Shown in pieces: positions 5,849 to 62,848 of a stretch of DNA of 64,000 bases. Every line of letters begins with the position of its first letter. Positions within the stretch are counted from its first letter, which is position 1. A program made the position numbers and the translations under genes. Under the pieces are notes generated by a model, which was not told where the DNA came from, did not search any database, and saw only the letters and a list, made by a program, of their open reading frames with translations. Origin of the DNA: Phytohabitans rumicis (lineage in GTDB: Bacteria; Actinomycetota; Actinomycetes; Mycobacteriales; Micromonosporaceae); NCBI RefSeq assembly GCF_011764445.1, contig NZ_BLPG01000001.1:4278001-4342000 (forward strand). The letters run 5' to 3'.

Positions 5849-6023
5849 AAGTGGAACAGATCACCATATTGAGCCCGCGTCCTGCCGGAGGCCGTACCTG
5901 TTCGCGGTGGGCGCTCGCGTTGGGCCGGGGAGGTTCTCCCCGGCCCAACGCGTTCCCCCGCCCCACGCACCCCGCTTGCCCCCGCGCCGCCGCGCGTCCC
6001 ACGCCCGCCCTCCCGCCTTTCCC

Positions 6024-6106
6024 CGTCGATCAAGGGCATATGGTCGTGCTTTGATCTCCGATCCACGACCGTTGCCCTTGATCGACGATGTTTCCCTTGA
6101 TCGGCG
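6024..6106. repeat. Palindromic repeat family 1, copy A
   Basis: Inverted arms beginning GTCGATCAAGGGCATATGG and ending TTGCCCTTGATCGAC flank an asymmetric centre (GTGCTTTGATCTCCGATCCAC). A partial outer arm, TTTCCCTTGATCGGCG, follows on the right only. Four further copies lie in the window. The surrounding 5849-6170 contains no credible gene; the open frames there are out-of-phase GC-rich shadows. Confidence 0.85.
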
Positions 6107-6258
6107 AGGCTGGCCGGGTGCGGAGGGCGGGGTTGGGGTTCGGGTTCGGCAGGGCGCGCTACGCGTAAGTAGGGCGCCCCCAAGGCCGGGTAGTTAAGGA
6201 TTCCTGGGCGCTGTCAAGCCGCGCGGCTGATCGCTTGCCCAGCGTTGGAGCCGCCGAA

Positions 6259-6307
6259 TCGATCTAGGAGTTGTCGTGGGTTATACCCACCACGACTCCT
6301 AGATCGA
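6259..6307. repeat. Hairpin inside the MITE-like element
   Basis: Outer arms TCGATCTAGGAGT (6259-6271) and ACTCCTAGATCGA (6295-6307) pair perfectly. An inner GTGGG/CCCAC stem closes a TTATA loop. The four bases between outer and inner stems do not pair. Confidence 0.8.
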
Positions 6308-6312
6308 CGCCA

Positions 6313-6384
6313 GCCTGCGGTGATCATGAAGTTGGCGGCAGGGAAAGGGCTCTCCCCAGGCGTCAACTTCATGGTCACCGCAGG
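6313..6384. repeat. Palindromic repeat family 2, copy inside the MITE-like element
   Basis: Arms CCTGCGGTGATCATGAAGTT and AACTTCATGGTCACCGCAGG form a long near-perfect stem. The TGATCATGAA end is shared with the hairpins at 20969 and 22001. Confidence 0.8.
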
Positions 6385-6535
6385 AGCCGGGTCACCGTCC
6401 GGGTGAACGGGAACGACGCGGTCACCTGACCCTGATGACACCCCCCGGTCACCGGATAGCGCATAACAGGGGCGCCCTCAAGGCCGCAACATCAGGGGGT
6501 CGGCGCGGACGTCAAGGCCGCGACGACGAGGCGGG

Positions 6536-6588
6536 GTAGATCTAGACGAGTTACGGCTGACATCGAGCCCTAACTCGTCTAGATCTAC
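6536..6588. repeat. Hairpin inside the MITE-like element
   Basis: Arms GTAGATCTAGACGAGTTA and TAACTCGTCTAGATCTAC pair perfectly over 18 bases around a short loop. It is the third hairpin in the interior of the element. Confidence 0.8.
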
Positions 6589-6942
6589 CACCAGCTTCGA
6601 CCTGGCAAGGGATGGGCCGAGCCCGCACCCGGATGTATCCGACACAACCAGCCACTGGATCCCGGTCCACCCACCGGGCCGGCGATGTGATCGACGGCAG
6701 GGCCGACCTACGCCGCGACCGTGGCGAACAGTTGCCCCTGGGAGGGCAACTTCTCGACACAGTCACCAAAGTCAAGGGCGATGACCGCATCACATCAGCG
6801 CTCGACATGGACCTGATTCCCTTAACTACCCGGCCTTGAGGGCGCCCCACTCACGGGTAGTAACCGCTCACACCCGCAGACGTCGTCGCGCCCCACCGCA
6901 CCCTGCCCCGCGACCGGGGCAAGCCCGCACGCCTCGCCCACC

Positions 6943-7030
6943 GCATCGATCAAGGACTTCACCGTGGATCAAGGGCAAACGGTCGTGGTTTAGAGATCAA
7001 AGCACGACCATATGCCCTTGATCGACGGGG
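6943..7030. repeat. Palindromic repeat family 1, copy B
   Basis: Arms GATCAAGGGCAAACGGTCGTG and CACGACCATATGCCCTTGATC surround the centre GTTTAGAGATCAAAG; an outer half-arm GCATCGATCAAGGACTTC lies on the left. As the sequence stands, the purB frame runs into this repeat and takes its stop codon there. Confidence 0.85.
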
Positions 7031-7071
7031 AGAGGCGGAGAGGAGCGGGGAGACGGCGGAGAGGGAGGGGC

Positions 7072-8494
7072 TCAGAGGATGGGGGTGGGGTGTAGGCGGC
7101 GGCTGTGGGGTGGGCGGTTACTACGGTGGCGACCCGGTCGACTACGGACTGGACCTGGGCTGGTGCGGCGCCCACGAACGCCTCCCGGTCCGCGACCAGC
7201 GCGTCGATCTCGGCGCGGCTCAGGCCGAGGCGCGGGTCAAGGGCGAGCCGGTCGAAGAGGTCGTTTTCCACGGCGCCCTTCTCCCGCATCGCCAGCGCCA
7301 CCGCCACCGCGTGCTCCTTGATCGCCTCGTGGGCGGCTTCCCGGCCGACGCCCCGGCGTACGGCGGCGACCAGGATCTTCGTGGTCGCCAGGAACGGGAG
7401 GTAGCGGTCCAGCTCCCGGGCGATCACCGCGGGGTACGCGCCGAACTCGTCGAGCACGGTCAGGAACGTCTGGAAGAGTCCGTCGGTGGCGAAGAAGGCG
7501 TCCGGCAGGGCGACCCGGCGTACGACGGAGCAGGAGACGTCGCCCTCGTTCCACTGGTCGCCGGCCAGCTCACCGACCATAGACAGGTACCCCGGATGAT
7601 CACAGCGAAGCCGTTGACGCGTTCGCTGGAGCGGGTGTTCATCTTGTGGGGCATGGCGGACGAGCCGACCTGGCCGGGCCGGAAGCCCTCGGTGACCAAC
7701 TCCTGCCCGACCATCAGCCGGATGGTTGTGGCCAGCGAGGATGGGCCGGCGGCGAGCTGTGCCAGCGCGGCCACCACCGCGAAGTCGATGGAACGTGGGT
7801 AGACCTGCCCGACGCTGTCCAGCACCCGGGTGAAGCCCAGGTGCGCGGCCACCTGCTTCTCCAAGACAGCCAGCCGATCAGAAGAGTGGAGAAGCAGGTC
7901 CAGCTGGTCCGCCGCCGTACCGACCGGGCCCTTGATGCCGCGCAGCGGGTACCAGGCGATGAGGTCGTCGAGTCGCTCGTACGCGATGAGCAGCTCCTCG
8001 GCCGCCGACGCGAACCGCTTGCCGAGCGTGGTCGCCTGCGCCGCCACGTTGTGCGAGCGGCCGGTCATGACCAGGTCGGAGTGCTCCACAGCGAGCCGGG
8101 CGAGCCGGGCCAGGGCGGCCACGACGCGGTCCCGGACCAGCTCCAGGGACCGCCGGATCTGCAACTGCTCGACGTTCTCGGTCAGGTCGCGCGAGGTCAT
8201 CCCCTTGTGGATGTGCTCGTGCCCGGCCAGCGCGCTGAACTCCTCGATGCGCGCCTTCACGTCGTGGCGGGTCACCCGCTCGCGGGCCGCGATCGACGCC
8301 AGGTCGACCTGGTCGAGCACCCGCTCGTACGCCTCGACGACGCCGTCCGGCACCTCGATGCCCAGGTCGCGCTGGGCCCGGAGCACGGCCACCCACAGGC
8401 GCCGCTCCAGCCGTACCTTTTCTTCCGGCGCCCAGAACGCGACGAGTTCGGGTGAGGCGTACCGGGCTGCGAGCACATTCGGAATCACGGGCAA
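7072..8494 (-). CDS. purB: Adenylosuccinate lyase, frame broken by two apparent 1-base deletions
   Basis: PurB cleaves SAICAR and adenylosuccinate, each time releasing fumarate. Residues 1-280 carry family landmarks: KARIEEFSALAG, HKGMTSRDLTENV, MTGRSHNVAAQATTLGKR, and the catalytic-loop signature GSSAMPHKMNTRSSERVNG. At about 7591 a C/G run is one base short; restoring it continues YLSMVGELAGDQWNEGDVSCSVVRRVALP. A second one-base gap at 7081-7085 would restore an ending TPPPIL and the stop at 7072; without it the frame extends into repeat copy B. Start may be the TTG at 8494 or the GTG at 8488. Both lesions are in homopolymers, so sequencing error is likely. Confidence 0.9.
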
Positions 8495-8500
8495 ATTGTC

Positions 8501-9768
8501 TCAGCGTTCCAAGATCGCGACGACACCCTGCCCCCGGCAGCGCAGATGGAGATCAGGCCACGCCCCGAGCCGCGCTGGGCGAGCAGCTTCGCCAGGGTCG
8601 CCACGATGCGCCCACCCGTCGCGGCGAACGGGTGCCCGGCGGCGAGCGACGAGCCGTTCACGTTGAGGCGGGAGCGGTCGATCGAGCCCAGCGGCGCGTC
8701 GAGGCCCAGCCTGGACTTGCAGAACTCGGGCGACTCCCACGCGGCGAGCGTGGCCAGCACCTGGGACGCGAACGCCTCGTGGATCTCGTAGAAGTCGAAG
8801 TCCTGCAGGGTCAGCCCGTTGCGGGCGAGCAGCCGGGGCACGGCGTACGCGGGTGCCATGAGCAGGCCCTCGCCGCCGTGCACGAAGTCGACCGCGGCGG
8901 TCTCGGCGTCGACGAACCGGGCGAGCACCGGCAGGTTGCGCGCGGCGGCCCACTCCTCGGATGCCAGCAGCACCACGGCGGCCCCGTCCGTGAGCGGGGA
9001 AGAATTGCCCGCCGTCATGGTGGGATCCGCAGATTTGTAGACGGTCTTCAGAGAGCCCAGCTTCGATAGCGACGTGTCGGGCCGCAGGTTCTGGTCCCGG
9101 GTCAGCCCGAGGTACGGCGTGAGCAGGTCGTCGAAGAAGCCCTGGTCGTACGCGGCCGCGAGCTTCTGGTGCGACTCCAAGGCGAGCTCGTCCTGGGCGG
9201 AACGGGAGATGCCCCAGTCCAGAGCCGTGATCGCCGCGTGGTCGCCCATCGACAGCCCGGTACGCGGCTCGGCGTTCCGCGGAATCTCCGGCCGGAACGG
9301 CTGCAGCGGCCGCAGCCGGGCGACCGCCCGCAGCCGCGCGCCCAGCGAGCGGGCCGAGTTGAGCTCCAGCAGGGCGCGGCGCATGTCCTCGTTGAGCTGC
9401 AGCGGCGCGTCGGAGGTGGTGTCGACCCCGCCCGCGATACCGGCCTCGATCTGGCCCAGTGCGATCTTGTTGGCGACCAGGATCGCCGCCTCCAGGCCGG
9501 TGCCGCACGCCTGCTGCACGTCGTACGCCGGGGTGTGCGGGTCGAGCCGCGAGCCGAGCACGACCTCGCGGGTCAGGTTGAAGTCGCGGGAGTGCTTCAG
9601 CACCGCCCCCGCGACCACCTCGCCGAGGCGCTCACCGGCCAGGCCGTACCGGGCGACCAGGCCGTCCAGCGCGGCGGTCAGCATGTCCTGGTTGGCCGCC
9701 GTGGCGTACCGGCTGTTCGACCGGGCGAACGGGATCCGGTTACCACCGATGATCGCGACACTCTGCAC
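8501..9768 (-). CDS. Thiolase, acetyl-CoA C-acyltransferase (FadA2/FadI-like)
   Basis: Thiolases cleave 3-ketoacyl-CoA or condense two acyl-CoAs. The active-site Cys lies in QQACGTGLEAA (about residue 90), the His motifs in EIHEAFASQ and NVNGSSLAAGHPFAATG, and the second Cys in ICAAGG close to the C-terminus. After ICAAGG the frame breaks at a 5-base G run (8531-8535); one added base gives QGVVAILER and a stop at 8501, the normal thiolase ending, for about 422 residues. It is divergent from a FabG4-like gene, with an HtdX-like dehydratase next, matching the M. tuberculosis Rv0241c-Rv0243 set (htdX, fabG4, fadA2). A fatty acid or cholesterol side-chain substrate is inferred. Confidence 0.9.
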
Positions 9769-9788
9769 GACTTCCCCTCCCAGCGAAA

Positions 9789-9804
9789 CCTACTCGTGAG
9801 TAGG
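9789..9804. promoter_or_regulatory. Probable TetR operator in the thiolase/FabG4 divergent promoter
   Basis: CCTACTC-GT-GAGTAGG is a 7-2-7 palindrome between two divergent starts (9768 and 9813). Its TACTCGTG core is the same as in the longer palindrome upstream of the tetR gene at 12655-12682, suggesting one regulator binds both. Confidence 0.65.
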
Positions 9805-9812
9805 ATACGCCT

Positions 9813-11125
9813 ATGAGCGATCGGTATGCGACCTTCGCCAATTCCGCCCCGGGCCGAGCCGTGGTCAAGCGCCTCGGTCTGCCCGCGCCGCCCCGGCTGC
9901 GCCGGTACAAGGCCGGCGAGAAGCTGGGTCCGGTGCTACTCGACGCCGCGCCGGGCGGTCGACTACGCGAGCCCGTCAGCGAAATTCTCAAGGGTGTCGA
10001 GGAGCAGGCCGAGAAGTACAGCGCCCTGATCTTCGACGCCACCGGCATCAGCGACTCCACCGGACTGCACACGCTCTACGACTTCTTCCACCCGCACGCG
10101 CGCTCGCTGCACGCCTCCGGCCGGGTGATCGTGCTCGGCACCCCGCCCGAGGCGTGCGAGACCCCACGCGAGGCCACCGCCCAACGCGCCATCGAGGGGC
10201 TGACCCGCAGCATCGGCAAGGAGTTCGGCCGCGGCACGACCGCGCAGCTCGTCTACGTCACCCCGGCGCCGAAAACGCCATCGAGTCGACCGTCCGCTTC
10301 CTGCTGTCCGGCAAGTCGGCGTACGTCTCCGGCCAGGTCATCCGCATCGGCCCGGCGGCCGCCGTCAACCCGCCGGCCGACTGGGACCGCCCGCTCGACG
10401 GCAAGGTCGCCCTGGTCACGGGCGCGGCGCGGGGGATCGGCGCGGCGATCGCGCGGGTCCTGGCCCGCGACGGCGCGCACGTCGTCGCGCTGGACGTGCC
10501 CGCCGCCGGCGACGCGCTCGCCGCTGTCGCCAATGACATCAGGGGTACGTCGTACCAGCTCGATTTGACCGCGGAGGGAGCACCTGACCGGCTCGCCGAC
10601 CACATCGGCGGTCGGCACGGGCGCATCGACATCGTGGTGCACAACGCGGGCATTACGCGAGACAAGACGATCGGGCGGATGGACGCCGACCGGTGGGACT
10701 CCGTGCTCGACGTCAACCTCTCCAGCCAGGAGCGCATCAACGACGTACTCCTGGAGCGCAGCCTGATCCCGGACGGCGGGCGACTGATCGGCGTGGCCTC
10801 GATCGCCGGCATCGCCGGCAACCGCGGCCAGACCAACTACGCGACCAGCAAGGCCGGCGTGATCGGGCTGGTCCAGTCGATGGCGCCGGTGCTCGCCGAG
10901 CGCGGCATCACGATCAACGCGGTGGCGCCCGGGTTCATCGAGACCCGGATGACGGCGAAGCTCCCCGTGATGATCCGCGAGGCCGGCCGCCGGATGAACA
11001 GCATGTCCCAGGGCGGGCTGCCGGTGGACGTGGCGGAGACGATCGCGTGGTTCGCCTCGCCCGCGTCCGGCGGCATCACCGGCAACGTGGTACGAGTCTG
11101 CGGCCAAAGCCTCCTCGGCGCCTGA
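9813..11125 (+). CDS. 3-oxoacyl-ACP/CoA reductase, FabG4-like, frame broken by an apparent 1-base deletion
   Basis: A two-part SDR of about 437 residues in the restored frame, the size of mycobacterial FabG4. The N-terminal half (about 1-200) is a degenerate Rossmann domain without a cofactor motif. The C-terminal half has the full SDR signature: [13 protein letters not shown] (NAD(P) binding), [10 protein letters not shown], catalytic Ser in [15 protein letters not shown] (Tyr/Lys), and the GFIETRMT region. The two halves are in different frames; one base added near 10264 joins ...[18 protein letters not shown]. Expected role is NADH-dependent reduction of 3-ketoacyl-CoA, working with the divergent thiolase and convergent dehydratase. 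It ends at the large palindrome at 11119. Confidence 0.9.
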
Positions 11126-11190
11126 GTGCAAGGAAGGGCCCCTTGTTATGCAAAAAGCGATAACAAGGGGCCCTTCCTTGCACTCAGGCG
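11119..11190. terminator. Perfect 31-bp-arm palindrome between convergent genes, bidirectional terminator
   Basis: Arms at 11119-11149 and 11160-11190 are perfect complements around a 10-base loop GCAAAAAGCG. The TGA stop of the fabG4-like gene (11123-11125) and the TGA of the dehydratase on the other strand (11184-11186) are both inside the arms, at mirror positions. The inner arm includes AAGGAAGGGCCCCTTGTTAT. Stability and position argue for transcription termination from both sides. Confidence 0.85.
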
Positions 11191-11984
11191 GTGATTGTGC
11201 CGGCTAGGTGGGGTTTGCCGGAGCCGGCGTTGTGGAGGGCGAACGTCCACTGTGGCTGAGCGCTGAAGGCCACGGTGGACGGGAGCAGGATCGGCAGCTT
11301 GAACTCCACGTCCACGGCGTACGCCTCGGGCAGCCGGCCCTCCAGCGCGGCCAGGCAGCGGGCCTTGCTCCACATGCCGTGCGCGATGGGCCGGGGAAAC
11401 CCGAAGAGGCGGGCGCCGAGGCGAGAGGTGTGGATCGGGTTGTGGTCGCCGGAGACGCGCGCGTAATCCGTACCCGCGCGGGGTTGGACTCGCCAGCGAG
11501 CCGACGGCGCCGGCGGCTCCGGGCGGTCGCCGCCGCGCGCGGACCCGCCCTTACGCTCCTTGCGCAGGTACGTCGAGACGCCCCGCCACACCTCTTCGCC
11601 GCCCGCCGAGGCGGTGGCGACGACGTCGAACTGCCGCCCGCGCTCGTGCTCGCGCAGGTCGACGGCCCGGACCGACAGGTCGAGCGTCTCCCCGGCGTCG
11701 ATCGGGCGGCGCTGCTCGATGCGGTTGGCCACGTGCACGACGCCGACGACGGGGAACGGGAAGTTCGCGGCGGACATCAGCTTCGTCGCCAGCGGAAAGG
11801 CGAGGATGTGCGGGTACGTCGGCGGCAGCGCGTCGGTGAGCCGGAAGCCGCACACCCGGTTGTAGCCGGCGAGCCGGCCCCGGTCGACGGCGACGCCGCG
11901 CCGCTCCAGCTCGGTGTCGGGCAGGTGGTCGGGCCGGGAGAAGACCGGCACCAGGCCGATCGCGGCCTTGAGGTAGGGCGCCAT
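11184..11984 (-). CDS. MaoC-like (R)-hydratase, HtdX-type
   Basis: A 266-residue protein with two hot-dog-like halves. The C-terminal half carries the hydratase signature around YARVSGDHNPIHTS (about residues 175-188) with catalytic Asp and His, followed by GFPRPIAHGMWSKA. The N-terminal half (PPTYPHILAFPLATKLM) resembles a decayed hot-dog domain, as in M. tuberculosis HtdX. Predicted reaction is reversible hydration of 2-enoyl-CoA/ACP, completing the reductase-dehydratase pair with the convergent FabG4-like gene. The open frame continues upstream but AGGAG sits 5 bases before the ATG at 11984; GTG 11990 and ATG 11987 are alternatives. It follows the tetR gene by 8 bases, so the two are likely cotranscribed. 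Confidence 0.85.
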   Translation of the reverse strand: MAPYLKAAIGLVPVFSRPDHLPDTELERRGVAVDRGRLAGYNRVCGFRLTDALPPTYPHILAFPLATKLMSAANFPFPVVGVVHVANRIEQRRPIDAGETLDLSVRAVDLREHERGRQFDVVATASAGGEEVWRGVSTYLRKERKGGSARGGDRPEPPAPSARWRVQPRAGTDYARVSGDHNPIHTSRLGARLFGFPRPIAHGMWSKARCLAALEGRLPEAYAVDVEFKLPILLPSTVAFSAQPQWTFALHNAGSGKPHLAGTITA

Positions 11985-11992
11985 CATCACTC

Positions 11993-12651
11993 CTATTCGC
12001 CCGATGGGTGCCAGACGTCGCCGCGCAGCAGTTGGGCGGCGCCGAGCCAGGCCACATTCATCATCCGGGTCGCGGTCTTGTCGGGGTCGGCTTCCGGGTG
12101 ATCCGCCAGCCAGTCGGCGAGCGACTCGGAGGCGCCGACCAGCGCGTACGCCATGACCTCCAGGTCGGTGTCGCGGATCTCTCGGCCCTCGGCGGCGAGC
12201 GCCTGCGCGAGCATCACGCCGACCACCCTGACCATGCGCTCGCGCATCTCGGCGAGGTTGTCGGCGAACGGCTGCTGGGCGCGCGCCTGCCGGTAGAGCA
12301 CCCCCCAGCCGTCCCGGTGCGCGCCGACGAACCGGAAGAAGGCCCGCAGCCCGCTCCACAGCTGCCCGTCCGGCGTCAGGTCGGGCGCGACGGCCTCGGC
12401 GATCGCCTCCATCAGCCGGGTGCCCTCGCGGTGCAGGCAGGCGACGAAGAGCTCCTCTTTGGTGCCGAGGTAGGCGTACACCATGGGTTTGGAGATGCCG
12501 GCGTCGTCGGCGATCTCGTCCATGCTCGCGGCGTGGAAGCCGCGCCGGGAGAAGACCCGGACGGCGGCGTCCAACATTTGCTGCTCACGAACCGCCCGTG
12601 GCAGTCGTTTGAAGGTCGGGGGGCGGAATAGCCTGTCACCCTTGTCAGCAT
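11993..12651 (-). CDS. TetR-family transcriptional regulator of the lipid module
   Basis: The N-terminal helix-turn-helix is clear: QQMLDAAVRVFSRRGFHAASMDEIADDAGISKPMVYAYLGTKEELF. The rest is an all-helical ligand domain; total length is about 219 residues if the N-terminus starts at ATG 12651 (GTG 12639 is an alternative). From ATG 12577 alone the HTH is complete, but upstream residues RLPRAVREQQ are in the same frame and join a VTGYSAPPTFK start only if one base is added to the 6-base G run at about 12617-12622. A 13-2-13 palindrome 4 bases upstream is the likely operator, so autoregulation and control of the divergent SCP2/acyl-CoA dehydrogenase/ligase operon are expected. The effector is probably an acyl-CoA, by analogy. 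Confidence 0.88.
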
Positions 12652-12654
12652 ACC

Positions 12655-12682
12655 TACTCGTGCGTAAGGTTACGCACGAGTA
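12655..12682. promoter_or_regulatory. TetR operator, perfect 13-2-13 palindrome
   Basis: TACTCGTGCGTAA, a GG spacer, and TTACGCACGAGTA lie between the divergent tetR and SCP2 genes. The TACTCGTG half repeats the operator at 9789-9804, and TACTCACGG follows at 12690. This is the strongest regulatory palindrome in the window. Confidence 0.8.
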
Positions 12683-12709
12683 AGTTCTCTACTCACGGAG
12701 GCTCAACCC

Positions 12710-13162: not shown

Positions 13163-13163
13163 T

Positions 13164-20968: not shown

Positions 20969-21032
20969 CGTTGATCATGAAGTTATCCGCACTTTGGGGC
21001 CCACTTCCGGGTGACAGGTTCATGATCACCGG
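20969..21032. repeat. Palindromic repeat family 2 between AbiEi-like gene and purD
   Basis: CGTTGATCATGAAGTTATCC and GGTTCATGATCACCGG form imperfect inverted arms around GCACTTTGGGGCCCACTTCC. The right arm contains the stop codon of the AbiEi-like gene (21026-21028). It may serve as the terminator of that gene. Confidence 0.75.
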
Positions 21033-21946: not shown

Positions 21947-22000
21947 GCCCCCACGGTGGCCCCACAAGGAGATCGACAAAACCCCCTGTGGATAACTACC

Positions 22001-22083
22001 CCCACCTCCCCGTTGATCATGAACTTGTCCGCCGCGAGAGCGCGTTCTCCTGGGGACAAGTTCATGATCAACGGGGAGGTGGG
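22001..22083. repeat. Perfect 30-bp-arm palindrome (family 2), likely purA terminator before the IS insertion
   Basis: Arms 22001-22030 and 22054-22083 are exact complements; the outer part is CCCACCTCCCC, the inner part GTTGATCATGAACTTGTCC. The loop is 23 bases. It ends 5 bases before the target duplication of the IS. Before the insertion it would have been about 15 bases downstream of the purA stop, where a terminator is expected. Confidence 0.85.
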
Positions 22084-22088
22084 GGACC

Positions 22089-31711: not shown

Positions 31712-31817
31712 CGCCGATCAAGGCTTTCCCCGTCGATCAAGGGCAAATGGTCGTGGATCGGAGATCAAAGCACGGCCGTTCGCCCTTGATCGATGACGAA
31801 AGCCTTGATCGATGACG
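31712..31817. repeat. Palindromic repeat family 1, copy C (full length with outer arms)
   Basis: Outer arms GCCGATCAAGGCTTTC and GAAAGCCTTGATCGATG enclose inner arms GTCGATCAAGGGCAAATGG and CCGTTCGCCCTTGATCGAT around GATCGGAGATCAAAG. It separates two convergent genes, a position suited to termination. Confidence 0.9.
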
Positions 31818-47569: not shown

Positions 47570-47573
47570 GCGC

Positions 47574-49355: not shown

Positions 49356-49386
49356 CCCCCGGCCCCGGCCTCCCCGTCTCTCCCCG

Positions 49387-49445
49387 TTGATCAGGGAGTA
49401 ACTCGGGCGTGTTGCGGCGCGCCCCTGGAGCCGGTCCCTGATCAC
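49387..49445. repeat. Palindromic repeat family 3, copy 1
   Basis: TTGATCAGGGAGTAACTCGGG at the left and GGTCCCTGATCAC at the right enclose CGTGTTGCGGCGCGCC. The same sequence, inverted, occurs at 62792-62848. Confidence 0.8.
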
Positions 49446-49536
49446 GGCGATCTTGCGGGCCCACGCGGACAGCGGGACGGGCGGGGACCCCCCGTGGATC
49501 CCCGCCCGTGCGCTGTCGCCATTTCGCGCCAACGGC

Positions 49537-54122: not shown

Positions 54123-54150
54123 GTTCGCTTCCCTCGCTTCTAACGGGTCA

Positions 54151-54173: not shown

Positions 54174-54270
54174 GTGCCACGCCCACCCTCATCGTCAAAT
54201 CCAGGGTTGAGCGCCCCCCACGCAAGGCTACGCGGGCCGGGCCACCCCCGCGCCACACTGCGCCCCGCCA

Positions 54271-54371
54271 CGCCGATCAAGGCTTTCCGTGTCGATCAAG
54301 GGCAAACGGCCGTGAATCGGAGATCAAACCACGACCGTTTGCCCTTGATCGACGGGAAGGTCCTTGATCGG
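54271..54371. repeat. Palindromic repeat family 1, copy D
   Basis: Outer arms GCCGATCAAGGCTTTCC and GGAAGGTCCTTGATCGGA; inner arms GTCGATCAAGGGCAAACGG and CCGTTTGCCCTTGATCGAC, centre GAATCGGAGATCAAACCAC. It lies in the divergent gap between dnaK and the GTPase operon. Confidence 0.88.
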
Positions 54372-54466
54372 AACGAGGGTGGTGGTCGAGCGGGAAACGG
54401 GCAAACGTTAGCGGAAGCCGCACTGTTTGTGTTGTATGCGATGCGTGGATCGGGCAGTCTTTACCC

Positions 54467-56628
54467 GTGACGTCGCACGGTGACATGCCGGCGGGGAGAT
54501 CTGGCACGCCTACCGCGACCCCCGAGGAGCCGCCGGCCAGCCCGGATCCGGGGTCTGACCAGGACGCCGGAGCCGCGGCCGACGCTGAGCACGGCACGGA
54601 GGCGAAGCCCGCCGAGCTCAAGCGTGCCACGGAGGCGGAGCCGGCCGCGGCTCCCACAGAGACCAGCGCCGAGACACCCGAAGCCGTCACCGAGCCCGCC
54701 GCGAGCGAGCCCGAGGCAGAAACCGAGCCTGAGGCCACCGAGCCCGAGGCCGACGCCGAGCCGGAGAAGGACACCGAGGCCGTCGCCGAGCCGGAGCCGG
54801 AGCCGGAGCCGGAAGAGCCAACCGCCGAGGTGGAGCCGGCCAACCCGGCCAACGAGGAAGCGGCGGAAGAAGACGACGACGGCCCAGAAGACGACAGCGC
54901 CGCGGAGATAGCCGCCGCGCTCACCCGCCTGCGCGGGCGATCGCCGGGTCGCAGTACCCGCTGGTCCTGCACTCGGCCGAAGACGCCCGCCGGATCAGTG
55001 CGGCCCTGCTGGCGCAGCTCGACGACTACCTGCTGCCCCGGCTCGCGCGCCTGGACGCGCCGCTGCTGGTCGTGGTCGGCGGCTCGACGGGAGCGGGCAA
55101 GTCCACCTTGGTCAACAGCTTCGTACGGGCACCGGTGAGCCCGGCCGGCGTGCTGCGGCCGACCACGCGCACGCCCGTACTGGTGTGCAATCCGGCGGAC
55201 TCGCAGTGGTTTCGGCGCGGAGACCTGCTGCCGGGGCTGACCCGTACCACCGAGGCCACCAGCGAACCGGACTCGCTGCAGATCGTCGCCGCGCCCGCGC
55301 TGACCGCCGGGCTGGCATTCCTCGACGCGCCCGACATCGACTCCGTGGTGGACGAGAACCGGGCGCTTGCCGCGCAGTTGCTCGCGGCCGCCGACCTGTG
55401 GCTCTTCGTCACCACGGCCGCCCGGTACGCCGACGCGGTGCCGTGGGAGCTGTTGCAGACCGCGCGCTACCGGGGCACGGTCACCGCGCTGGTGCTCGAC
55501 CGGGTGCCGCCGGAGGCCGCCGAGGAGGTCACCGCCCACCTGCTCGAGATGCTGTCCATCCACGGCCTGGACACCGCGCCCCTGTTCGTACTGCCGGAGA
55601 CCGAGGTCGACAGCCAGGGCCTGCTGTCCGAGTCGGTGACGATGCCGCTGCGCGACTGGTTCGGCCGGATCGCCGCCGACGCGGCCACCCGCGCCGCCGT
55701 GGTCCGGCAGACGCTCGACGGCGCGCTCGCCGCGCTCGAACCGGCGGTCGCGGGGCTGGCCGCCGCCGCGGACGAGCAGGTCACCACCGCGGACGCCCTC
55801 GACGATCGGGTACGCGCCGCGTACCGGGCCGGGCGCCGCACGGTCTCGCAGGGCGTGCAGGACGGCCGGTTGCTGCGTGGCGAGGTGCTCGCCCGGTGGC
55901 AGGAGTTCATCGGCACCGGCGAGTTGCTGCGCACCCTGGAGGCGCGCATCGGCCGACTCCGGGACCGGGTCGTCGCCGCGCTCCGCGGCCGGCCGGTGCC
56001 CGGGCGCGAGCTTCGTTCGGCGATCGAGGCCAACCTGGTCACGCTGATCCGGGGTGCCGCCGCCGACGCGGCCGACCAGGCGTACTCGGGCTGGCAGGCG
56101 CACCCGGCCGGGTCCGCGCTGCTCGATCCGAGCCTCGGCCGATCCAGCGCCGACCTGCCCGAGCGGGCCGAACGGCTGGTACGCGACTGGCAGCGCGGGG
56201 TGCTGGAGATGATCCGGCGGGAGGCGGGCCACAAGCGGGCCACCGCCCGCGGCGCCGCGTACGCCGTGAACGCCACCGGGCTCCTCGTCATGATCGGCGT
56301 GTTCGCGTCGACGGCGTTCATCCCGACCGGGGCGGAGGTCGCGGTCGCCGGTGGCACCACGGTCGCCGCGCAGAAGGTGCTCGAAGCCATCTTCGGCGAC
56401 CAGGCCATCCGTGCCCTGGCCGCGAAGGCCCGCGACGACCTGCTGGCGCGGACGAACGCGATCCTGGACGAGGAGGCCGCGCGCTACGCCGACCGGCTGA
56501 TCGCCGCCGGGATCAGCGCGGATCCCGCCACGGACCTGCGCGACGCCGCCGCCCTGGTGGAGTACGCGCGGGCAAAGGCCGCCCTCACCGACGGCACCAT
56601 GTTGGCCCTGCCGGGGGTTCATCTATGA
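54467..56628 (+). CDS. Dynamin-like GTPase 1 (DynA/DynB-type), frame broken by an apparent 1-base deletion
   Basis: About 720 residues in the restored frame. Residues 1-150 are acidic and low complexity (repeated TEPEA/EPE). The GTPase domain then begins; one base added near 54937 joins LTRLR to AIAGSQYPLVLHSAEDARR. P-loop GGSTGAGKSTLVNSF, G3 LDAPDIDSV, and a weak G4 position (LDRVPPEA) without TKxD. A coiled helical stalk follows, with a hydrophobic segment near the C-terminus (ATGLLVMIGVFASTAFIP). The next gene overlaps as ATGA. Streptomyces DynA/DynB, a tandem pair that stabilises FtsZ rings at sporulation septa, is the closest parallel; direct equivalence is inferred. Confidence 0.85.
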
Positions 56629-58280
56629 GCATTCTCAGCAGGTTGCGGCGCGACGACGAGATCGACGCCGACCGGCTGTCCGACCGGGTCGACGCGATCG
56701 GCCGGTTCATCCGGGTGGTCGACGGCCACCTGCCCGAGCAGCGCCTGATCGCCGCGCACACCGTGGTCGAACGGGCCGGCGCCCGGCTGGCGCTCTCCCG
56801 CGACCACACCGTGGTGGCCCTCGCCGGTGCCACCGGCAGCGGCAAGTCCAGCCTGTTCAACGCGCTGGCCCGGCTCGACCTGTCGCCGGTGGGCGTGCGC
56901 CGCCCGACCACCGGCATGGCCCACGCCTGCGTGTGGGGCAACCTGCAGGGCGCCAACCGCCTGCTCGACTGGGTGGGGGTGCTGCCGCGGCACCGGTTCA
57001 TCCGGGAGAGCGCGCTGGACGGCGACGACGAGCGGGCACTGCGTGGGCTGGTGCTGCTGGACCTGCCCGACTTCGACTCGGTGGAGCGGTCGCACCGGCT
57101 GGAGGTCGACCGGCTGCTGGGCCTCGTCGACCTGGTGGTCTGGGTGGTCGACCCGCAGAAGTACGCCGACCGGGTGGTCCACACGCGATACCTGCAGGAG
57201 TTTCGCAACCACAAGGACGTCACGGTCGTGGTGCTCAACCAGATCGACCGGCTGCCCCCGGACGAGGTCGAGCGGGTCCTTACCGACCTGCGCAAACTGC
57301 TCGACGAAGACCAGCTCGACGGCGTACCGCTGGTGGCCACGACCGCGCTGCGGCAGTCGGCCATCACCGACCTGCGCGGCATGCTCGAGCAAACCGTCGC
57401 CGAGCGGCAGGCATCCCTGCGGCGGCTCGCCGGCGACGTCGACACCGTGGTCGACCAGCTCTCCGACGTGGTGGGCCCGGCCGTGGCCGAGGACGAGATC
57501 GACCGGAGCACCGTGCGGGAGCTGACCGACGCGCTCGCCGTCGCCGCCGGGGTGCCGGCCGTGGCGGAGGCGACCGAGCACGCGTACCGGCATCGGGCGG
57601 CGCAGGCGACCGGCTGGCCGGTCGTGCGGGGCTGGCGCCGGTTGCGCCCCGATCCGCTGCGCCGGCTGCACCTTCCCGAGGGCCCGGTCGAGCCGGGCGA
57701 GCCGGTCGGCGCCACCTCGGTGCCCGACCCGAACGCCGCCCAGCGCGCCGCCGTCGGCCTGGCGCTCCGCACGGTCGCCGACCGCGCCTCGGCACCGCTG
57801 CCCGACCTGTGGTCGACCGCGCTCAACACCGCGGCCCGTTCCCGGCTGCGCGACGTGCCCGACGCGCTCGACCGGGCCGTCGCCAGCACCAACCTGCGGA
57901 TGGACGAGACGCCGGCGTGGTGGCGGGTCGTGGGTGGGCTGCAGTGGCTGGTCACCCTCGCCGCCGTGGGCGGGCTGCTCTGGCTGGCTGCCGGGTACGC
58001 CGTACGCGTGCTCGGGCTGCCCGAACTGGACTACCCGATGGTCGGCGTCGTACCGCTGCCCACGGTGCTGCTCGTCGGCGGGCTGCTGGCCGGGGTGCTG
58101 ATCGGCTTCCTGGTGCGCCCGCTCATCCGGCACGCGGCGCGGCGTGCCCGGCGCCGGGCGGAAAACCGGCTGCGGGCGGCCGTCACCGAGGTGGCGCGGG
58201 AGCACATCGTCGCGCCCGTCCGGACGGTCCTGCACGCGTACGCCGAGGCACGAGAGGCACTGACGTCCGCCGGATCGTGA
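56625..58280 (+). CDS. Dynamin-like GTPase 2 (YfjP-type)
   Basis: A 551-residue GTPase: MSILSRLRRDDEIDADRLSDRVDAIGRFI, P-loop GATGSGKSSLFNALARLDLSPVGVRRPTTG (with switch I Thr), G3 LLDLPDFDSVERSHRLEVDRLLGLVDLVVWVVDPQKYAD, and a proper G4 LNQIDRLPPDE. C-terminal part is helical with two hydrophobic helices (LQWLVTLAAVGGLLWLAAGYAV and VVPLPTVLLVGGLLAGVLIGFLV) and a basic end. It overlaps gene 1 as ATGA and the next gene as GTGA, so the three are coupled. With one degenerate and one complete G4 motif, the two GTPases may work as a heteromer at the membrane. Confidence 0.88.
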   Translation: MSILSRLRRDDEIDADRLSDRVDAIGRFIRVVDGHLPEQRLIAAHTVVERAGARLALSRDHTVVALAGATGSGKSSLFNALARLDLSPVGVRRPTTGMAHACVWGNLQGANRLLDWVGVLPRHRFIRESALDGDDERALRGLVLLDLPDFDSVERSHRLEVDRLLGLVDLVVWVVDPQKYADRVVHTRYLQEFRNHKDVTVVVLNQIDRLPPDEVERVLTDLRKLLDEDQLDGVPLVATTALRQSAITDLRGMLEQTVAERQASLRRLAGDVDTVVDQLSDVVGPAVAEDEIDRSTVRELTDALAVAAGVPAVAEATEHAYRHRAAQATGWPVVRGWRRLRPDPLRRLHLPEGPVEPGEPVGATSVPDPNAAQRAAVGLALRTVADRASAPLPDLWSTALNTAARSRLRDVPDALDRAVASTNLRMDETPAWWRVVGGLQWLVTLAAVGGLLWLAAGYAVRVLGLPELDYPMVGVVPLPTVLLVGGLLAGVLIGFLVRPLIRHAARRARRRAENRLRAAVTEVAREHIVAPVRTVLHAYAEAREALTSAGS

Positions 58281-58672
58281 GGCTCGGGCTGGGGCTGCTC
58301 GGCGCGCTCCACCTGTCCTGGGGCGTGCCGGCGACGCTGGCGCCGCGGTGGTTCTTCGACACGTTCCCCGGCTTCGGGCGGGCGTGGACCGCCGCGTATC
58401 CGCCCTACAACGAGCACCTCGTGATAGATCTGGGCGCCACGTTCACCGCCCTGGGCGTACTCCTGCTGATGGCGGCGTGGCTCGCGGACCGCAAGGTGAC
58501 CGCGGTGGTCCTGTGTGGAGTGCTGGTGTTCTCTTCTTTGCACTTGATCTTCCATGCCCGCCACCATGGCGCGCTGGCCGGTGCGGACCTCGTGGCGAGC
58601 CTGGTGGCGCTGGCGCTCGGGGTGGCCGTCCCGGTCGGCCTTCTCGTGCTCGACCGGCGGCGGCGGGCGTAG
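58277..58672 (+). CDS. Small four-helix membrane protein
   Basis: A 131-residue protein of four hydrophobic segments: [95 protein letters not shown]. His and Phe patterns (HLIFHARHHGAL) recall actinobacterial DoxX-like or DUF4345-like proteins but I cannot assign it. GTG 58277 shares GTGA with the GTPase-2 stop, so it is cotranslated with the GTPases; a membrane partner role is possible. Confidence 0.72.
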   Translation: MRLGLGLLGALHLSWGVPATLAPRWFFDTFPGFGRAWTAAYPPYNEHLVIDLGATFTALGVLLLMAAWLADRKVTAVVLCGVLVFSSLHLIFHARHHGALAGADLVASLVALALGVAVPVGLLVLDRRRRA

Positions 58673-58681
58673 GGTCTGTCC

Positions 58682-59860
58682 ATGACGCCCTACGAGGCGG
58701 TGTTGCGAGCCGCTCGCGACGTTGCCAAGCTCGACTGCGCCCTGGACGCCGAGATGCTCGGGACCGCACTGCTCGGCAGCGTGTACGCGGTCGCCGAGGA
58801 AGACCGGGCCGACGCCGTGCGCGACTTCGTGGGCGGGTTCCTCGCCGCCACGTCGCGGCGCCGCACGGCCGCCGCGACCACGATCCGGGAGGTCTTCGCG
58901 GCGCTCGTGCCCGAGGCGTCCGGCGCCGCCGCGGTCAAGCGCGGTGCCCAGGCGCCGCCGTGGACCGACCAGCTCGGGCAGGTGCGGCTCACCGGCAGCT
59001 ACGCCTACGGAGACGTGTACGGCGACCAGACGTCCTACCTGGCCACCTTCGCCTACGACGACAGCGACTCGGGCGGCCCCGAGCACGCCGTGGTGGCCCT
59101 GGTCGACCACAACATCGGCATCACCAAGGACGTCTTCGTCGGCGGCCCGGCCGAGCGCATCCTGGCCCAGGTGCGGGAGATGTGCGCTGAGGACGAGCTC
59201 ACCTGGTTTCGCGAGGAGGACCCGCGGCGCCTGCGCGGCGAGGTGGCCCGCCACCTGCGGATCACCGACGGGCTGACCAACCTGCCGGCGGACGGCTCGT
59301 TGGCCACCGACCGCGCGCTGGCCGGCGCCCGGCTGTCGCTGCTGCCCACGCCGATGCTGACGGCGGTGCCCGATCCCGCGCCGTTCTCCTCCGATGACCT
59401 GGTACGCCGCTTCCTCGACTCCTCGGAGGCGGCCCGCCACGGGCTGACCCACGTCACCGAGGCGGAGCTGCCGTCGCTGCACTTCTGCATCAGCCTGGTG
59501 CTGGACCATGTGGCCAGCTACGCCGAGCCCGACCCGATGCGGTGGAGTCCCGCCGTGGCCGGCCTCTTCCTGCTCGACTGGGTGCACCGGCGGGCCGTCC
59601 TCGACATGGACGACGCCGCGATGCTGCCCCGCGTGGTCCGCGCCTGGGCCGCGTACGCCAGCCGCCAGCGCGGGCTGCCCGCCTCGGCGGCCGCCCGCAC
59701 GGACGAGGCGATCGAGGAGATGATCCCCGAGTTCGTGCGGCTCTACACGACCGGCGAACGCCGCAGCCCGGCCACGGCCGCCGTGGCCCAGCTGATCGCG
59801 GAAGGCATCGACCCCAGCGACCCCGACGCCCTGGACGCCTGGCTCCGCGACCGCGACTAA
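58682..59860 (+). CDS. Conserved actinobacterial hypothetical protein
   Basis: A 392-residue soluble protein, ATG 58682, 9 bases after the preceding stop. Segments: EAVLRAARDVAKLDCALDAEMLGTALLGSVYAVAEEDRADAVRDFVGGFLAA, VRLTGSYAYGDVYGDQTSYLATFAYDDSDSGGPEHAVVALVDHNIGITKDVFVGGPAERIL, SSDDLVRRFLDSSEAA, and a C-terminal helical half ending DPSDPDALDAWLRDRD. I have seen this layout in many actinobacterial genomes without a known role. It may be in one operon with the two dynamin-like GTPases. Confidence 0.78.
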   Translation: MTPYEAVLRAARDVAKLDCALDAEMLGTALLGSVYAVAEEDRADAVRDFVGGFLAATSRRRTAAATTIREVFAALVPEASGAAAVKRGAQAPPWTDQLGQVRLTGSYAYGDVYGDQTSYLATFAYDDSDSGGPEHAVVALVDHNIGITKDVFVGGPAERILAQVREMCAEDELTWFREEDPRRLRGEVARHLRITDGLTNLPADGSLATDRALAGARLSLLPTPMLTAVPDPAPFSSDDLVRRFLDSSEAARHGLTHVTEAELPSLHFCISLVLDHVASYAEPDPMRWSPAVAGLFLLDWVHRRAVLDMDDAAMLPRVVRAWAAYASRQRGLPASAAARTDEAIEEMIPEFVRLYTTGERRSPATAAVAQLIAEGIDPSDPDALDAWLRDRD

Positions 59861-59951
59861 CCCCGCCCCGCTACCCCACCGCCCCACCTGCCGCGCCCCA
59901 CCTGCCGCGCCCCGCCCGCCCCGCCCCGCCCGCCGCGCCCCGGCGGGCGCT

Positions 59952-60056
59952 GCGTCGATCAAGGACTTTGCCGTCGATCAAGGGCAAATGGTCGTGCTTT
60001 GATCTCCAATCCACGGCCATTTGCCCTTGATCGACGCAGAAAGCCTTGATCGACGC
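59952..60056. repeat. Palindromic repeat family 1, copy E (full length with outer arms)
   Basis: Outer arms GCGTCGATCAAGGACTTTG and AAAGCCTTGATCGACGC; inner arms GTCGATCAAGGGCAAATGG and CCATTTGCCCTTGATCGAC around GTGCTTTGATCTCCAATCCAC. It lies between two convergent genes in a gap that otherwise contains only GC-rich filler (59861-60089). Confidence 0.9.
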
Positions 60057-60089
60057 AGCACGGCGGGCGGTGAGCCGGAGGGGTGAGCA

Positions 60090-61016
60090 CTACGCGGGCT
60101 CGACCAGGCGTAGCCGGCGCTCCGCCAGGGTGATCGTCACCCGCTGACCCCAGGACATGGCGAGGTGGTCGGTTTCCAGGCCGTCGGCGAAGACCACGAG
60201 CCGGTCGCCCTCGGCGGTCACCTCCAGCGCGTCGCCGTCACTCAGCTGGCCGGCCGTCATCGACACCCCCGTCGCCGGTGACGGCCACGCCTCGCGTACG
60301 AACCAGCACAGCGCCGGCTCGTCGGGCTCGGGCAGGTGGGGTGCGCCGGGCCGCTCCCGGGAGATCGAGGCACACCACCCGGTCGCGCCGGTGCCGGTGC
60401 CCGCCACCAGGCCGGACGACGACTGCCGCTCCCGGCGCCCGTCCGCGGTGGACAGGACGTACCGGGCGGACTGGTGGCTGGCGTGCCCGACGTAGATCTC
60501 GTTCAGGCCCAGCAGCGCCTGCCCGTCGTCGAGGGCGGCGCGGGCCATCGTGCGCTCCCGTATCCGCGCCCGACCGGCGACCACCGCCGGCAGCAGCCGG
60601 CCGATGGAGTCTGGTGCGAATCGCACGAGCACGCCCGCGTTGCGCCCCGGCTCCGGGTCGACGCCGATGACCGGCTGCCCGTCGAGGTACTTCGCCGCGT
60701 TTGCCACCAGCCCGTCCTGGCCGACCGCGATCACGATGTCTTCCGGCGCGAACGGGAACCGGGCCAGGTCGTCGCGGTCCGCCCGGCCGCGCCGCCAGTC
60801 CGCCGGGATCGCGGCCCCGACCGCGGTCAGCGCGGCTTGGAGCGCGTCGTGCCGGGCCACGACCTCGGCCATGTCGCGGCCCCGCTGCCGGAGGAAGTAG
60901 CCGGCGGCGGCTTGGGTGCCGTGGTGAGCCAGCAGCTCGTCGAGCTCGCTGTGCCGGCTCACCACGACGACCCGCGGGGCGAGCGTGCCGGTCGCCGCAC
61001 CCACGCTCATTTTCAT
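60090..61016 (-). CDS. NAD-kinase-like protein
   Basis: A 308-residue relative of ATP-NAD kinase. [18 protein letters not shown] takes the place of the family GGDGT, with GQDG; the later [15 protein letters not shown] and [18 protein letters not shown] (NE motif) are typical; [15 protein letters not shown] matches the phosphate-binding region. The C-terminus is a beta-domain. Loss of the first Gly of GGDG may weaken kinase activity. ATG 61016 overlaps the upstream SPFH stop as ATGA; ATG 61010 (MSVGAATG) is also possible. Context with an SPFH protein and a Nudix regulator suggests NAD(P)-linked control. Confidence 0.8.
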
Positions 61017-62035
61017 TTCGAGAGCCGTCCGAGCAGGCTGGTCACCACGTCGGGAGTGACGGTGAGCTGGCCGATCTCGGGGAGCTGCCCCGCGACCTCG
61101 CGCAGCGCCAACGACTGGAGGACGGCCGGGGGCAGGTCCCGGTACGCCGCCAGCTTGGCCGCCTCGGTCTCTGCCTCGGCCAGCCCTACCGCCCGTACCC
61201 CCTCAGCCTTGGCAGCGGCGAGGGTGCGCTCCTTCTCTGCCTCGGCGGCGGCCAGCACCGCGGACCGCTCGGCCTTGCCCTGCGCGACGGCCAGCTCGGC
61301 GGTCGCCTCCAGCTCGGCCTTGCGGCGGGAGTTGGCGCCGTGCTGCTCGACGAGCTGCTGCTCGCGGCGGGCCAGCTCGATCTTGCTTTGCAGCTCGTTT
61401 TCGGCGATGGCCCGCTCCTGCTCGACGGCCTGGGCGCGGCGGGCGTACGTGGCGCGGTCGGCCTCGACCTGCACCGCCTCCCGGGTGGGCGTCTGCAGCG
61501 CGCGCTCCATCTCCGGCTCCGGGCGGACCGCGACGACCCGGGCGCTGACCACGGCCACGCCCACATCGGCGAGCCTTGCCTCGTCGCGGAGCGCCGCCGA
61601 GACCGCCTCGCGTACGGCGGCGATGTCGGTCAGCGCCTCGGCCAGCGGCACCCGGGCGAGCAGGTCGAGCGCCGGCTGCTGGGCCAGCTCGGCGAGGAGC
61701 GTGGCGATCTGGTCCAGCGGCCTGGCCCGGGCGACGCCGCGGTGCGGGTCGACGGAGAAGTCCAGCCGGCCGGCGGCCAGGGCCGGGTCGGCGACCCGGT
61801 ACGTCACGGTGGCCTGCACGGTCACGTCGGCGAAGTCGCTGGTCCGGGCGTGGAAGAGCAGGGGCAGCTCGCGGTCGTCGACCGGCACCTCGCTCAGCAC
61901 GCCGACCAGCGGCCGGTACCAGAAGGACTGCCCGATCCCCTCGTGCTTGACCCGGCCGCGCGCGTGGTGCCGGACCCAGGTCGTCGGGGCACCCCGCAGG
62001 TGCCGCAGGAACAACCGCTTGGTCACGTCCGCCAT
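61013..62035 (-). CDS. SPFH/band-7 domain protein
   Basis: A 340-residue protein from ATG 62035, with GGGAGG upstream. SPFH domain: [48 protein letters not shown], then [93 protein letters not shown], followed by a long heptad-rich coil with [45 protein letters not shown]. No N-terminal transmembrane helix is visible, so it would scaffold peripherally. It is divergent from the Nudix regulator gene and overlaps the NAD-kinase-like gene. Confidence 0.85.
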
Positions 62036-62054
62036 GACCACCCTCCCCTTTTTC

Positions 62055-62069
62055 TCGTCACCATGACGA
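62055..62069. promoter_or_regulatory. Candidate operator between SPFH and Nudix regulator genes
   Basis: TCGTCA-CCA-TGACGA is a perfect 6-3-6 palindrome in the divergent promoter. A related half-site, TCGTCA-AGG-TGGTGA, follows at 62089-62103 just before the Nudix start. NrtR-type autoregulation is inferred. Confidence 0.55.
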
Positions 62070-62110
62070 TAACAGCCGTGATAGATTCTCGTCAAGGTGG
62101 TGATAAAGAG

Positions 62111-62793
62111 ATGTTCGCGGTCACCGTCGACCTGGTGGTCCTGACCGTCCGCGGCGGCGAGCTGTGCGTGCTCCTGGTACGCCGCGGCACCCCGCCCTTC
62201 GCGGGCCGGTGGGCGCTGCCGGGCGGCTTCGTCCTCCCCGCCGAGGACCTCGCCACCGCCGCCGTACGCGAGTTGGCCGAGGAGACCGGCCTACGCCACC
62301 CGGCCGGCCACCTTGAGCAGCTCGGCAGCTACGGCGACCCGGACCGCGACCCGCGCGGGCGGGTGGTCACGATCGCCTACCTGGCCCTGCTGCCGGATCT
62401 GCCCACCCCGGTGGCCGGCACCGACGCGGCGCACGCGGAGTGGCTCCCGATCTGCCGGGTACGCGAGGCAGACCTCGCCTTCGACCACGAAAAGATCTTC
62501 ACGGACGGCCTGGAGCGGGCCCGCGCCAAGCTGGAGTACACGCCGCTGGCGACCGCGTTCTGCCCGCCCGAGTTCACCGTGGCCCAGCTGCGCCAGGTGT
62601 ACGAGACGGTGTGGGGCACCCACCTCGATCCGCGCAACTTCCACCGCAAGGTCACGGGTACGCCCGGTTTTGTCGAGCCGGCCGGCCGCTCGACGACCGG
62701 CGACCGTGGCCGGCCCGCCCAGGTCTTCGTCCGGGCCCGGCCGCCCTGCTACACCCTCCGATGCTGCGGCCGGAACGCCCAAGATCCGCCTGA
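62111..62793 (+). CDS. NrtR-like Nudix transcriptional regulator, frame broken by an apparent 1-base deletion near the 3' end
   Basis: About 227 residues in the restored frame. An N-terminal Nudix domain (VDLVVLTVRGGELCVLLVRRG, PGGFVLPAEDLATAAVRELAEETGL) with the Nudix box G-x5-E-x7-REL-x-EE-x-G modified (GGFVLPAEDLATAAVRELAEETG) is followed by a C-terminal winged helix (LEYTPLATAFCPPEFTVAQLRQVYETVWGTHLDPRNFHRKVTGTPGFVEPAGR). This is the NrtR layout; NrtR represses NAD biosynthesis genes and responds to ADP-ribose. The frame breaks near 62727; one base added gives a FRPGPAALLHPPMLRP ending and a stop at 62791-62793. AAAGAG precedes the ATG. Confidence 0.86.
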
Positions 62794-62848
62794 TCAGGGA
62801 CCCGCTCTCTCGGCACGCCACAAAACGCCCGAGCTATTCCCTGATCAA
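62792..62848. repeat. Palindromic repeat family 3, copy 2
   Basis: TGATCAGGGACCCGCTC and GAGCTATTCCCTGATCAAC form arms enclosing CTCGGCACGCCACAAAACGCCC. It begins in the stop codon of the Nudix gene in restored frame and is the inverse of the copy at 49387. The region 62870-63040 that follows is GGG/GTG-rich low-complexity DNA without a recognisable gene on the plus strand. Confidence 0.78.

Follow-up and report, generated by a model that had tools for sequence, protein, structure and literature searches.

The 64,000-nucleotide window analysed here, C1:4278001-4342000 of the 10.7-Mb, three-contig genome of Phytohabitans rumicis (Micromonosporaceae; hereafter G000), carries long hairpin-forming inverted repeats of several families in its intergenic gaps. 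The ten hairpins named in a first-pass annotation were all recovered within a few bases of the places given there, once their outer arms are allowed for, with family 1 cores starting at 6025, 6964, 31732, 54291 and 59973, family 2 cores at 6319, 20970 and 22012, and family 3 cores at 49386 and 62789. That every copy begins with GTYGATCA and ends with TGATCRAC, as the annotation had it, was true in part: both tips are exact in four of the ten (6025, 22012, 54291 and 59973) and one tip in five (6964, 20970, 31732, 49386 and 62789), and neither is exact in the copy at 6319 (GGTGATCA/TGGTCACC). Further hairpin types were also observed in the window, namely GATCTAGG at 6259, GTAGATCTAGACGAG at 6535 and the GATC-less GTGCAAGGAAGGG at 11119.

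Genome-wide counts were obtained by pattern searches, each paired with a reversed-pattern control. The tip-to-tip pattern was matched 373 times in G000 and its reversal 0 times, placing the tips far above expectation, and the family-1 pattern (GATCAAGGGC-N30-45-GCCCTTGATC) was matched 527 times in G000, 339 times in the congener G057, 5 times in G027, a relative from another genus, and 0-1 times in the other four congeners compared (G031, G077, G091 and G103), with controls of 0 throughout; a looser form of the pattern gave 1-8 matches in these four family-1-poor congeners. Hairpins numbered 60 in the 400-kb region A, against 0 and 1 in two first-order Markov sequences of 400 kb. In a 1.24-Mb (1.239 Mb) sample of the organism's own DNA, which underlies most of the statistics below, all 75 full family-1 copies are exactly 63 bp long, 60-66 bp having been allowed on collection (the first window copy, at 6025, has 62 bp), and their asymmetric centre occurs in either orientation, as noted earlier, with 37 copies on the plus and 38 on the minus strand. 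The arms measure about 24 bp and enclose a 15-nt centre of the pattern xxxxxGAGATCxAAx, and the tips are mostly CGTCGATC or CGCCGATC, preceded by C in 73 of the 75. Differential conservation was observed along the element, with 17 columns holding nearly all variation and at most two deviants at 44 of the 63 columns. Against a degenerate consensus, at exactly 63 bp and with up to eight mismatches allowed per arm, a count outside which indel copies fall, 56 copies show no departure, 16 show one, three show two and none shows 3-16. Four half-sites in the sample have no partner: two are nearly complete copies carrying an indel, one sits at the edge of a locus, and one is decayed.

The nested outer arms described for family 1 proved real, as a 20-bp outer unit (CGYCGATCAAGGAYTTYYGC) on the 5' side, oriented by the centre, where the GATCAAGG columns are kept in 71-73 of the 75 copies; the complementary unit on the 3' side is present in 39 of the 75, and the other 3' sides carry G-rich, often tandem, locus-specific sequence. 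Tandem-repeat scores of at least 20 were reached on the 3' side of 17 copies, on the 5' side of 8 and in none of 276 control gaps, and the C/G skew is absent from ordinary downstream sequence. A long GGGGC(G) tandem array directly follows one family-1 copy, from G000:C1:2540953 onward. Among the 71 non-family-1 hairpins of the sample, 22 hold a mirrored GATC within the outer 24 bases (19 within the outer 12); the palindromic tetramers ranking next are GGCC (16) and CCGG (14), both of which are 2-3 times commoner than GATC in the DNA.

The sharing of one tip by families with differing inner arms was upheld and extends over the bacterial family, and neither of the outcomes that the first-pass annotation gave as refuting it was seen. 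In 150 Micromonosporaceae genomes of 44 genera, the tip pattern GTTGATCA-N36-50-TGATCAAC was found in 58 genomes and 21 genera, with controls of 0 in all 150; a few of these 58 have only 1-2 matches, possibly by chance, and some (as in G145) read as chance matches in coding sequence. The tip-bearing elements are mostly 60-64 bp, their inner arms fall into discrete sets that are genome-specific where elements were listed, and copies of this form number 119 in G039, 80 in G103 and 89 (64 bp) in G009, with none in G057. A pattern of the tips plus a GATCTC centre gave 566 matches in G000, 397 in G057, 29 in G027 and up to 31 in some genomes of genus g4, and is only modestly specific, with about 1-6 matches per strand in most genomes, the listed ones coding-like. 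G027 holds 123 elements, and the 46 examined are mostly 62 bp (34/46) and combine the tips and centre of family 1 with other stems; the 4-5-bp inner stretch of the arm, here termed the address, agrees between left and right arm in 46 of 46, with a nearest-of-five split of 20/14/10/1/1 and one right arm tying between two. G057 has GCAC in both arms where G000 has GGYC, and GGYCG is absent from 13 of 13 G057 elements among the matches listed, one arm reading ACAC. A Micromonospora hairpin (locus L136), in the slot corresponding to that after window gene 58682-59860, joins family-2 arms to a family-1-like centre. In G027, a 30-bp perfect palindrome (GTCGATCATGACCTSSAGGTCATGATCGAC) was also seen 23 times within about 450 kb, often as one arm of a 61-bp GATCATGA-tipped element.

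These hairpins probably belong to one superfamily of dispersed palindromes that spans the Micromonosporaceae. Its members, mostly 60-64 bp, resemble REPINs (doublets of repetitive extragenic palindromes, REPs, that form hairpins) in being built from two inverted half-sites, each with a shared outer tip (GTYGATCA or close) and a clade- or family-specific inner address, with the asymmetric GAGATC centre shared by family 1 and its relatives. The spreading unit would be the whole double site, and copies lie just downstream of genes, often between convergent ones, either singly or together with other hairpins in blocks. Most likely, a sequence-specific protein whose gene lies elsewhere reads tip and address in each arm, presumably as double-stranded DNA, and drives spread or turnover, so that a change of address would rewrite the whole set in a lineage. 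We consider it probable that the elements are REPIN-like repeats moved or maintained by such an arm-reading protein. A fuller version, in which double half-sites with common tips and a 4-5-bp address are present by the tens to hundreds in many genomes of the Micromonosporaceae, and a co-evolving reader protein keeps every copy intact and readdresses whole sets, is offered tentatively, as a minority expectation. What chiefly calls for explanation is that addresses are lineage-specific and decayed copies nearly absent. A large actinomycete group with one tip in 21 genera, address switching between congeners, hardly any dead copies in the sample and no REP-associated tyrosine transposase (RAYT) points to another way of spreading or maintaining REP-like repeats, and the lineage-wide change of address and the intactness of the copies make the question of selfish or functional repeats directly testable.

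At the free positions 13, 14, 16 and 19 of the G000 copies, Watson-Crick pairing between the arms is no better than shuffled (z -0.5 to 1.3), and the arms are identical over positions 13-19 in 10 cases against 6.5 expected (P 0.10). In G027 the address columns co-vary strongly between the arms (z 5.6-9.3), as do position 8 (z 3.4) and the outer A/T at position 4 (z 4.7), positions 9-12 do so weakly (z 1.2-2.3) and positions 18-20 do not, and arm mismatches comprise 22 G·U and 29 A·C, lacking the preference of RNA. Within a set, neither compensatory changes nor changes that keep G·U pairs were seen, apart from one compensated G000 case (position 20); the address does change in both arms between subfamilies and species, and a scan of the window with Rfam returned no family at the gathering score. 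Selected RNA pairing is disfavoured because the free positions do not co-vary and G·U does not exceed A·C, and these observations favour a protein that would read each arm over selection on a paired stem.

Placement was counted against gene caller predictions, with intergenic base counts from regions A and B only. Of 75 family-1 copies, 36 lie between convergent genes, 33 between co-directional and five between divergent genes, and one lies inside a predicted gene; gaps bordered by one or two gene 3' ends hold 69 of the copies. Convergent gaps are enriched (36/75 versus 15% of intergenic bases, P 1.6e-11), divergent gaps depleted (5/75 versus 28%, P 7e-6), and the 3' side points toward the nearest gene end in 49 of the 75 (P 0.01). 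Of 17 pairs of neighbours no more than 1.1 kb apart, 11 have their 5' sides facing, six run in the same direction and none has the 3' sides facing. A role in terminating transcription (a terminator-like function was suggested in the first-pass annotation) or in stabilising mRNA 3' ends, by stems that vary, would suit this preference for gene ends, as would the hairpins scoring at least 10 in 25 of 80 loci in the slot after orthologues of window gene 58682-59860 (GATC-tipped in three Micromonospora loci). Such a function is weakened, and in our estimate very improbable, since no T-run was seen on either strand (T at 6% and 13% in the ten bases after the core on the two strands, and at 6-12% over the initial 60 bases on the 3' side), the arms show neither a G·U excess nor free-position pairing above the shuffled level, native terminator-like hairpins at 5916-5952 and 49478-49508, which congeners share, persist beside insertions, and 55 of the 80 loci have no hairpin of that score in the slot examined. 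The proposal that the slot after that conserved gene always holds a hairpin was likewise not upheld.

Along the chromosome, all samples at 2.1-5.6 Mb contained copies, those at 8.1-9.1 Mb contained six, and eight 20-kb samples at 0.1-1.6 and 6.1-7.6 Mb contained none; at least 24 family-1 copies lie below 1.84 Mb among the matches listed, so the copy-poor parts are not empty. Four exact GTTTCACGTGAAAC motifs, which we take to be parS-like, lie within 2.5 kb at G000:C1:4440959-4443413 with DnaA-box-like words nearby, and this cluster at 4.441 Mb suggests an origin inside the copy-rich part. The hairpins could be sites bound across the genome by a protein with a regulatory or chromosome-organising role, selection keeping each copy and species differences arising by co-evolution of protein and site. 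The copy-rich samples around the cluster and the empty ones in the poorer regions would agree with such sites, as would near-absolute conservation at 44 of the 63 columns beside free ones, the lack of decayed copies in the sample, and the independence of the arms, which fits the half-sites of a dimer. Binding sites are nevertheless rather unlikely, as the poor regions do hold copies (those below 1.84 Mb and the six at 8.1-9.1 Mb), four congeners have 0-1 copies (1-8 by the looser pattern) so that the set is dispensable, the hairpins form mosaics with unrelated hairpins and a duplicated composite block, and across the one region compared G000 and G057 have just a single copy-bearing gap in common, where their copies are oppositely oriented.

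Comparison with relatives points to insertion and turnover, mobility being the probable cause of the spread. The element at 49386 is missing at the aligned site in five of five congeners; that at 54291 is missing from the aligned gap in four congeners; that at 31732 is missing from the aligned gap in G077, G103 and G091, and in G031 this gap is longer through other DNA and its 80 kb held no family-1 hairpin; and that at 59973 is not in the aligned start of its gap in four congeners. Syntenic DNA from the four congeners that lack family 1, comprising 36 kb from G091 and 80 kb from each of the others, yielded no family-1 hairpin. The gap that holds 54291 contains in G057 an element of that genome's own type in the opposite orientation, which suggests independent insertion. 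The cluster at 6025-7026 is an insertion of about 1 kb relative to G103; block 6315-7090 recurs whole at 2540298-2541015 (81%), and its part 6379-7052 recurs at 2268223-2267567 (79.5%). In a 2.4-kb region rooted with G027, G057 is the earliest branch and G000 the next, ahead of the four congeners that lack family 1, making presence of family 1 in the ancestor and later loss in that clade the simplest history, as judged from this one region.

Long inverted arms, fixed length and dispersed insertions are also features of ordinary miniature inverted-repeat transposable elements (MITEs) of a DDE-type insertion sequence with terminal inverted repeats, and the hairpins resemble bacterial MITEs in being short and non-coding with inverted ends. 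In contrast to MITEs, direct repeats of 3-10 bp were, single matches apart, no more frequent than in shuffled controls around 75 cores and 34 elements with two outer units in G000 and around 24 elements of G027, giving no target duplication of at least 3 bp beyond chance; 2-bp repeats are at chance level, with which a 2-bp duplication remains compatible. Half-sites are almost never alone, so the sample shows no larger element sharing these ends; a parent insertion sequence was not seen there either, and a MITE origin is distinctly unlikely. Neisseria DNA uptake sequences likewise occur in many copies, often as inverted pairs at gene ends and in species dialects; the Phytohabitans half-sites differ in almost never standing alone.

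A RAYT-type enzyme, proposed earlier as the mobiliser, found no support. Matches to PF01797 (Y1/RAYT) number 0 in G000, in the congeners G057, G031, G077, G091 and G103, in G027 and in G121; the same model has matches in 41 of the 150 family genomes, and these do not track the tips, being present in 18 of the 58 genomes with tips and 23 of the 92 without (Fisher P 0.46). RAYT/Y1 was rejected as a present mobiliser on both grounds. Phage origin was set aside, the two viral contigs matching the family-1 pattern being read as chance (54% and 35% GC, with the family centre missing), and no plasmid matched that pattern.

Comparisons with known kinds draw on passages of PMC3116915, PMC3733652, PMC8266576, PMC6006769 and PMC8049555. 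REPINs of Pseudomonas fluorescens, as described in PMC3116915, are closely similar in organisation to the Phytohabitans elements, whose inverted double site keeps a fixed spacing in all 75 copies. The latter differ from REPINs in the absence of a RAYT gene and a GTAG tag, in almost lacking decayed singlets (one decayed half-site in 1.24 Mb), in their GTYGATCA tips and actinobacterial host, and, in G000, in the added 20-bp outer unit and G-rich tandem 3' tail. No GTAG was present in the column consensus of the 75 family-1 copies with 45-bp flanks, and the minor 6535 type begins with GTAG. The elements are thus REPIN-like in organisation and fall outside REPINs on transposase, tag and decaying singlets. 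They might be orphan REPs or REPINs, on whose single-stranded hairpins a RAYT (Y1 HUH) once acted before its gene was lost; the close organisation would suit this, and REPs in RAYT-less genomes are documented in PMC6006769 and PMC8049555. This descent is quite improbable, as neither G000, G057 and G027 nor any of the tip-bearing congeners has a PF01797 match, which would require several losses, PF01797 has no association with the tips over the 150 genomes, families 1-3 bear no GTAG tag, and the young-looking, intact copies suggest recent activity.

According to the survey PMC3733652, REP-like repeats are mainly proteobacterial and the GTAG kind is linked to RAYT transposases. CGTC-tagged REPs, as the same survey describes them, share with family 1 their form as palindromes after genes and the lack of a known dedicated transposase, and have 8-9-bp stems starting with A-T pairs, 4-5-nt loops and CCA-like tails, whereas family 1 has arms of about 24 bp, a 15-nt centre and GATC after the tag, outside those stem and loop sizes. 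No report of GATC-tipped or Micromonosporaceae palindromes was found among the papers listed by literature searches, as judged by titles and the beginnings of abstracts, and "palindromic" in passages of PMC5765111 refers only to clustered regularly interspaced short palindromic repeats (CRISPR).

Several points weigh against spread by an arm-reading protein. The missing decayed copies are odd for a transposon and fit selection equally well, and the matched addresses could mean that each subfamily descends from a single palindrome. The analysis found no mobilising gene, non-Y1 transposase families and recombinases not having been searched; proteins predicted between neighbouring family-1 copies look ordinary, none resembling a transposase, by eye and without a family search; and a reverse transcriptase, considered on account of the tandem 3' tails, is in G000 but missing from G057 and was discarded. 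The lack of a target duplication of 3 bp or more counts on the same side, as does the want of any base-precise empty-site junction, sites being seen empty at the level of gaps. Two features of G000 speak for pairing of the arms, namely the one copy whose change at position 20 is compensated, and linkers that flank the core and are complementary above the shuffled level (6 bp: 8/75 versus 2.4). Most statistics come from about 12% of the genome.

Table 1. Hairpin elements and associated features of the window (window coordinates; strand "." where none is assigned).
Feature	Position	Strand	Remark
Family-1 element, 62 bp, right arm 1 bp shorter	6025..6086	-	left member of facing pair
5' outer unit of family 1, CATCGATCAAGGACTTCACC	6944..6963	+	
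Family-1 element, 63 bp, left tip GTGGATCA, 3' flank purine-rich	6964..7026	+	
Family-1 element, both outer units, core 31732-31794	31712..31811	+	
Family-1 element, both outer units, core 54291-54353	54271..54373	+	
Family-1 element, both outer units, core 59973-60035	59953..60057	-	
Family-2 hairpin, core 6319-6379, GGTGATCATGAAGTT	6314..6384	.	
Family-2 element, 61 bp	20970..21030	.	GTTGATCATGG also at aligned place in G103
Family-2 element, core 22012-22072, 61 bp, 13-bp perfect flanking inverted repeat	21999..22085	.	
Family-3 element, 61 bp	49386..49446	.	
Family-3 element, 61 bp, left tip CCTGATCA	62789..62849	.	
Further GATC-tipped hairpin, TCGATCTAGGAGTTG	6259..6307	.	
Further GATC-tipped hairpin, GTAGATCTAGACGAG, begins GTAG, centre GACATC	6535..6589	.	
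Composite block, three hairpin types	6315..7090	.	
Native terminator-like hairpin, common to G103	5916..5952	.	adjoins ~1-kb repeat cluster
Native hairpin, present in 6/6 congeneric genomes aligned	49478..49508	.	beside family-3 insertion

Other features were observed among the minor hairpin types. Two sampled relatives of the 6535 type have the GAGATC or GATCTC of family 1 in their centre. Inverted arms GTAAGTAGGGCGCCCCCAAGG and CCTTGAGGGCGCCCCACTCAC at 6165-6854 of the window enclose about 690 bp with three other hairpins, and similar GAGTAGGGCGCCCC hairpins recur next to some family-1 copies elsewhere. The GATC-less type GTGCAAGGAAGGGCCCC, with centre TATCGCTTTTTGCATA, occupies 11119-11190 and accounts for 7 of the 139 hairpins of the 1.24-Mb sample. 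Family-2 copies (22012-22072 in the window; 2509010 in G000) have locus-specific perfect inverted repeats of 13-15 bp outside their tips; these may have arisen through template-switching extension or because the element inserted into a palindrome. Family-2 centres often hold an AGCGCT core, such as GGGAGCGCTCTCCC (2446846, 2509010 and 4697661 in G000; elements of G070), a core that resembles LacI-type operators.

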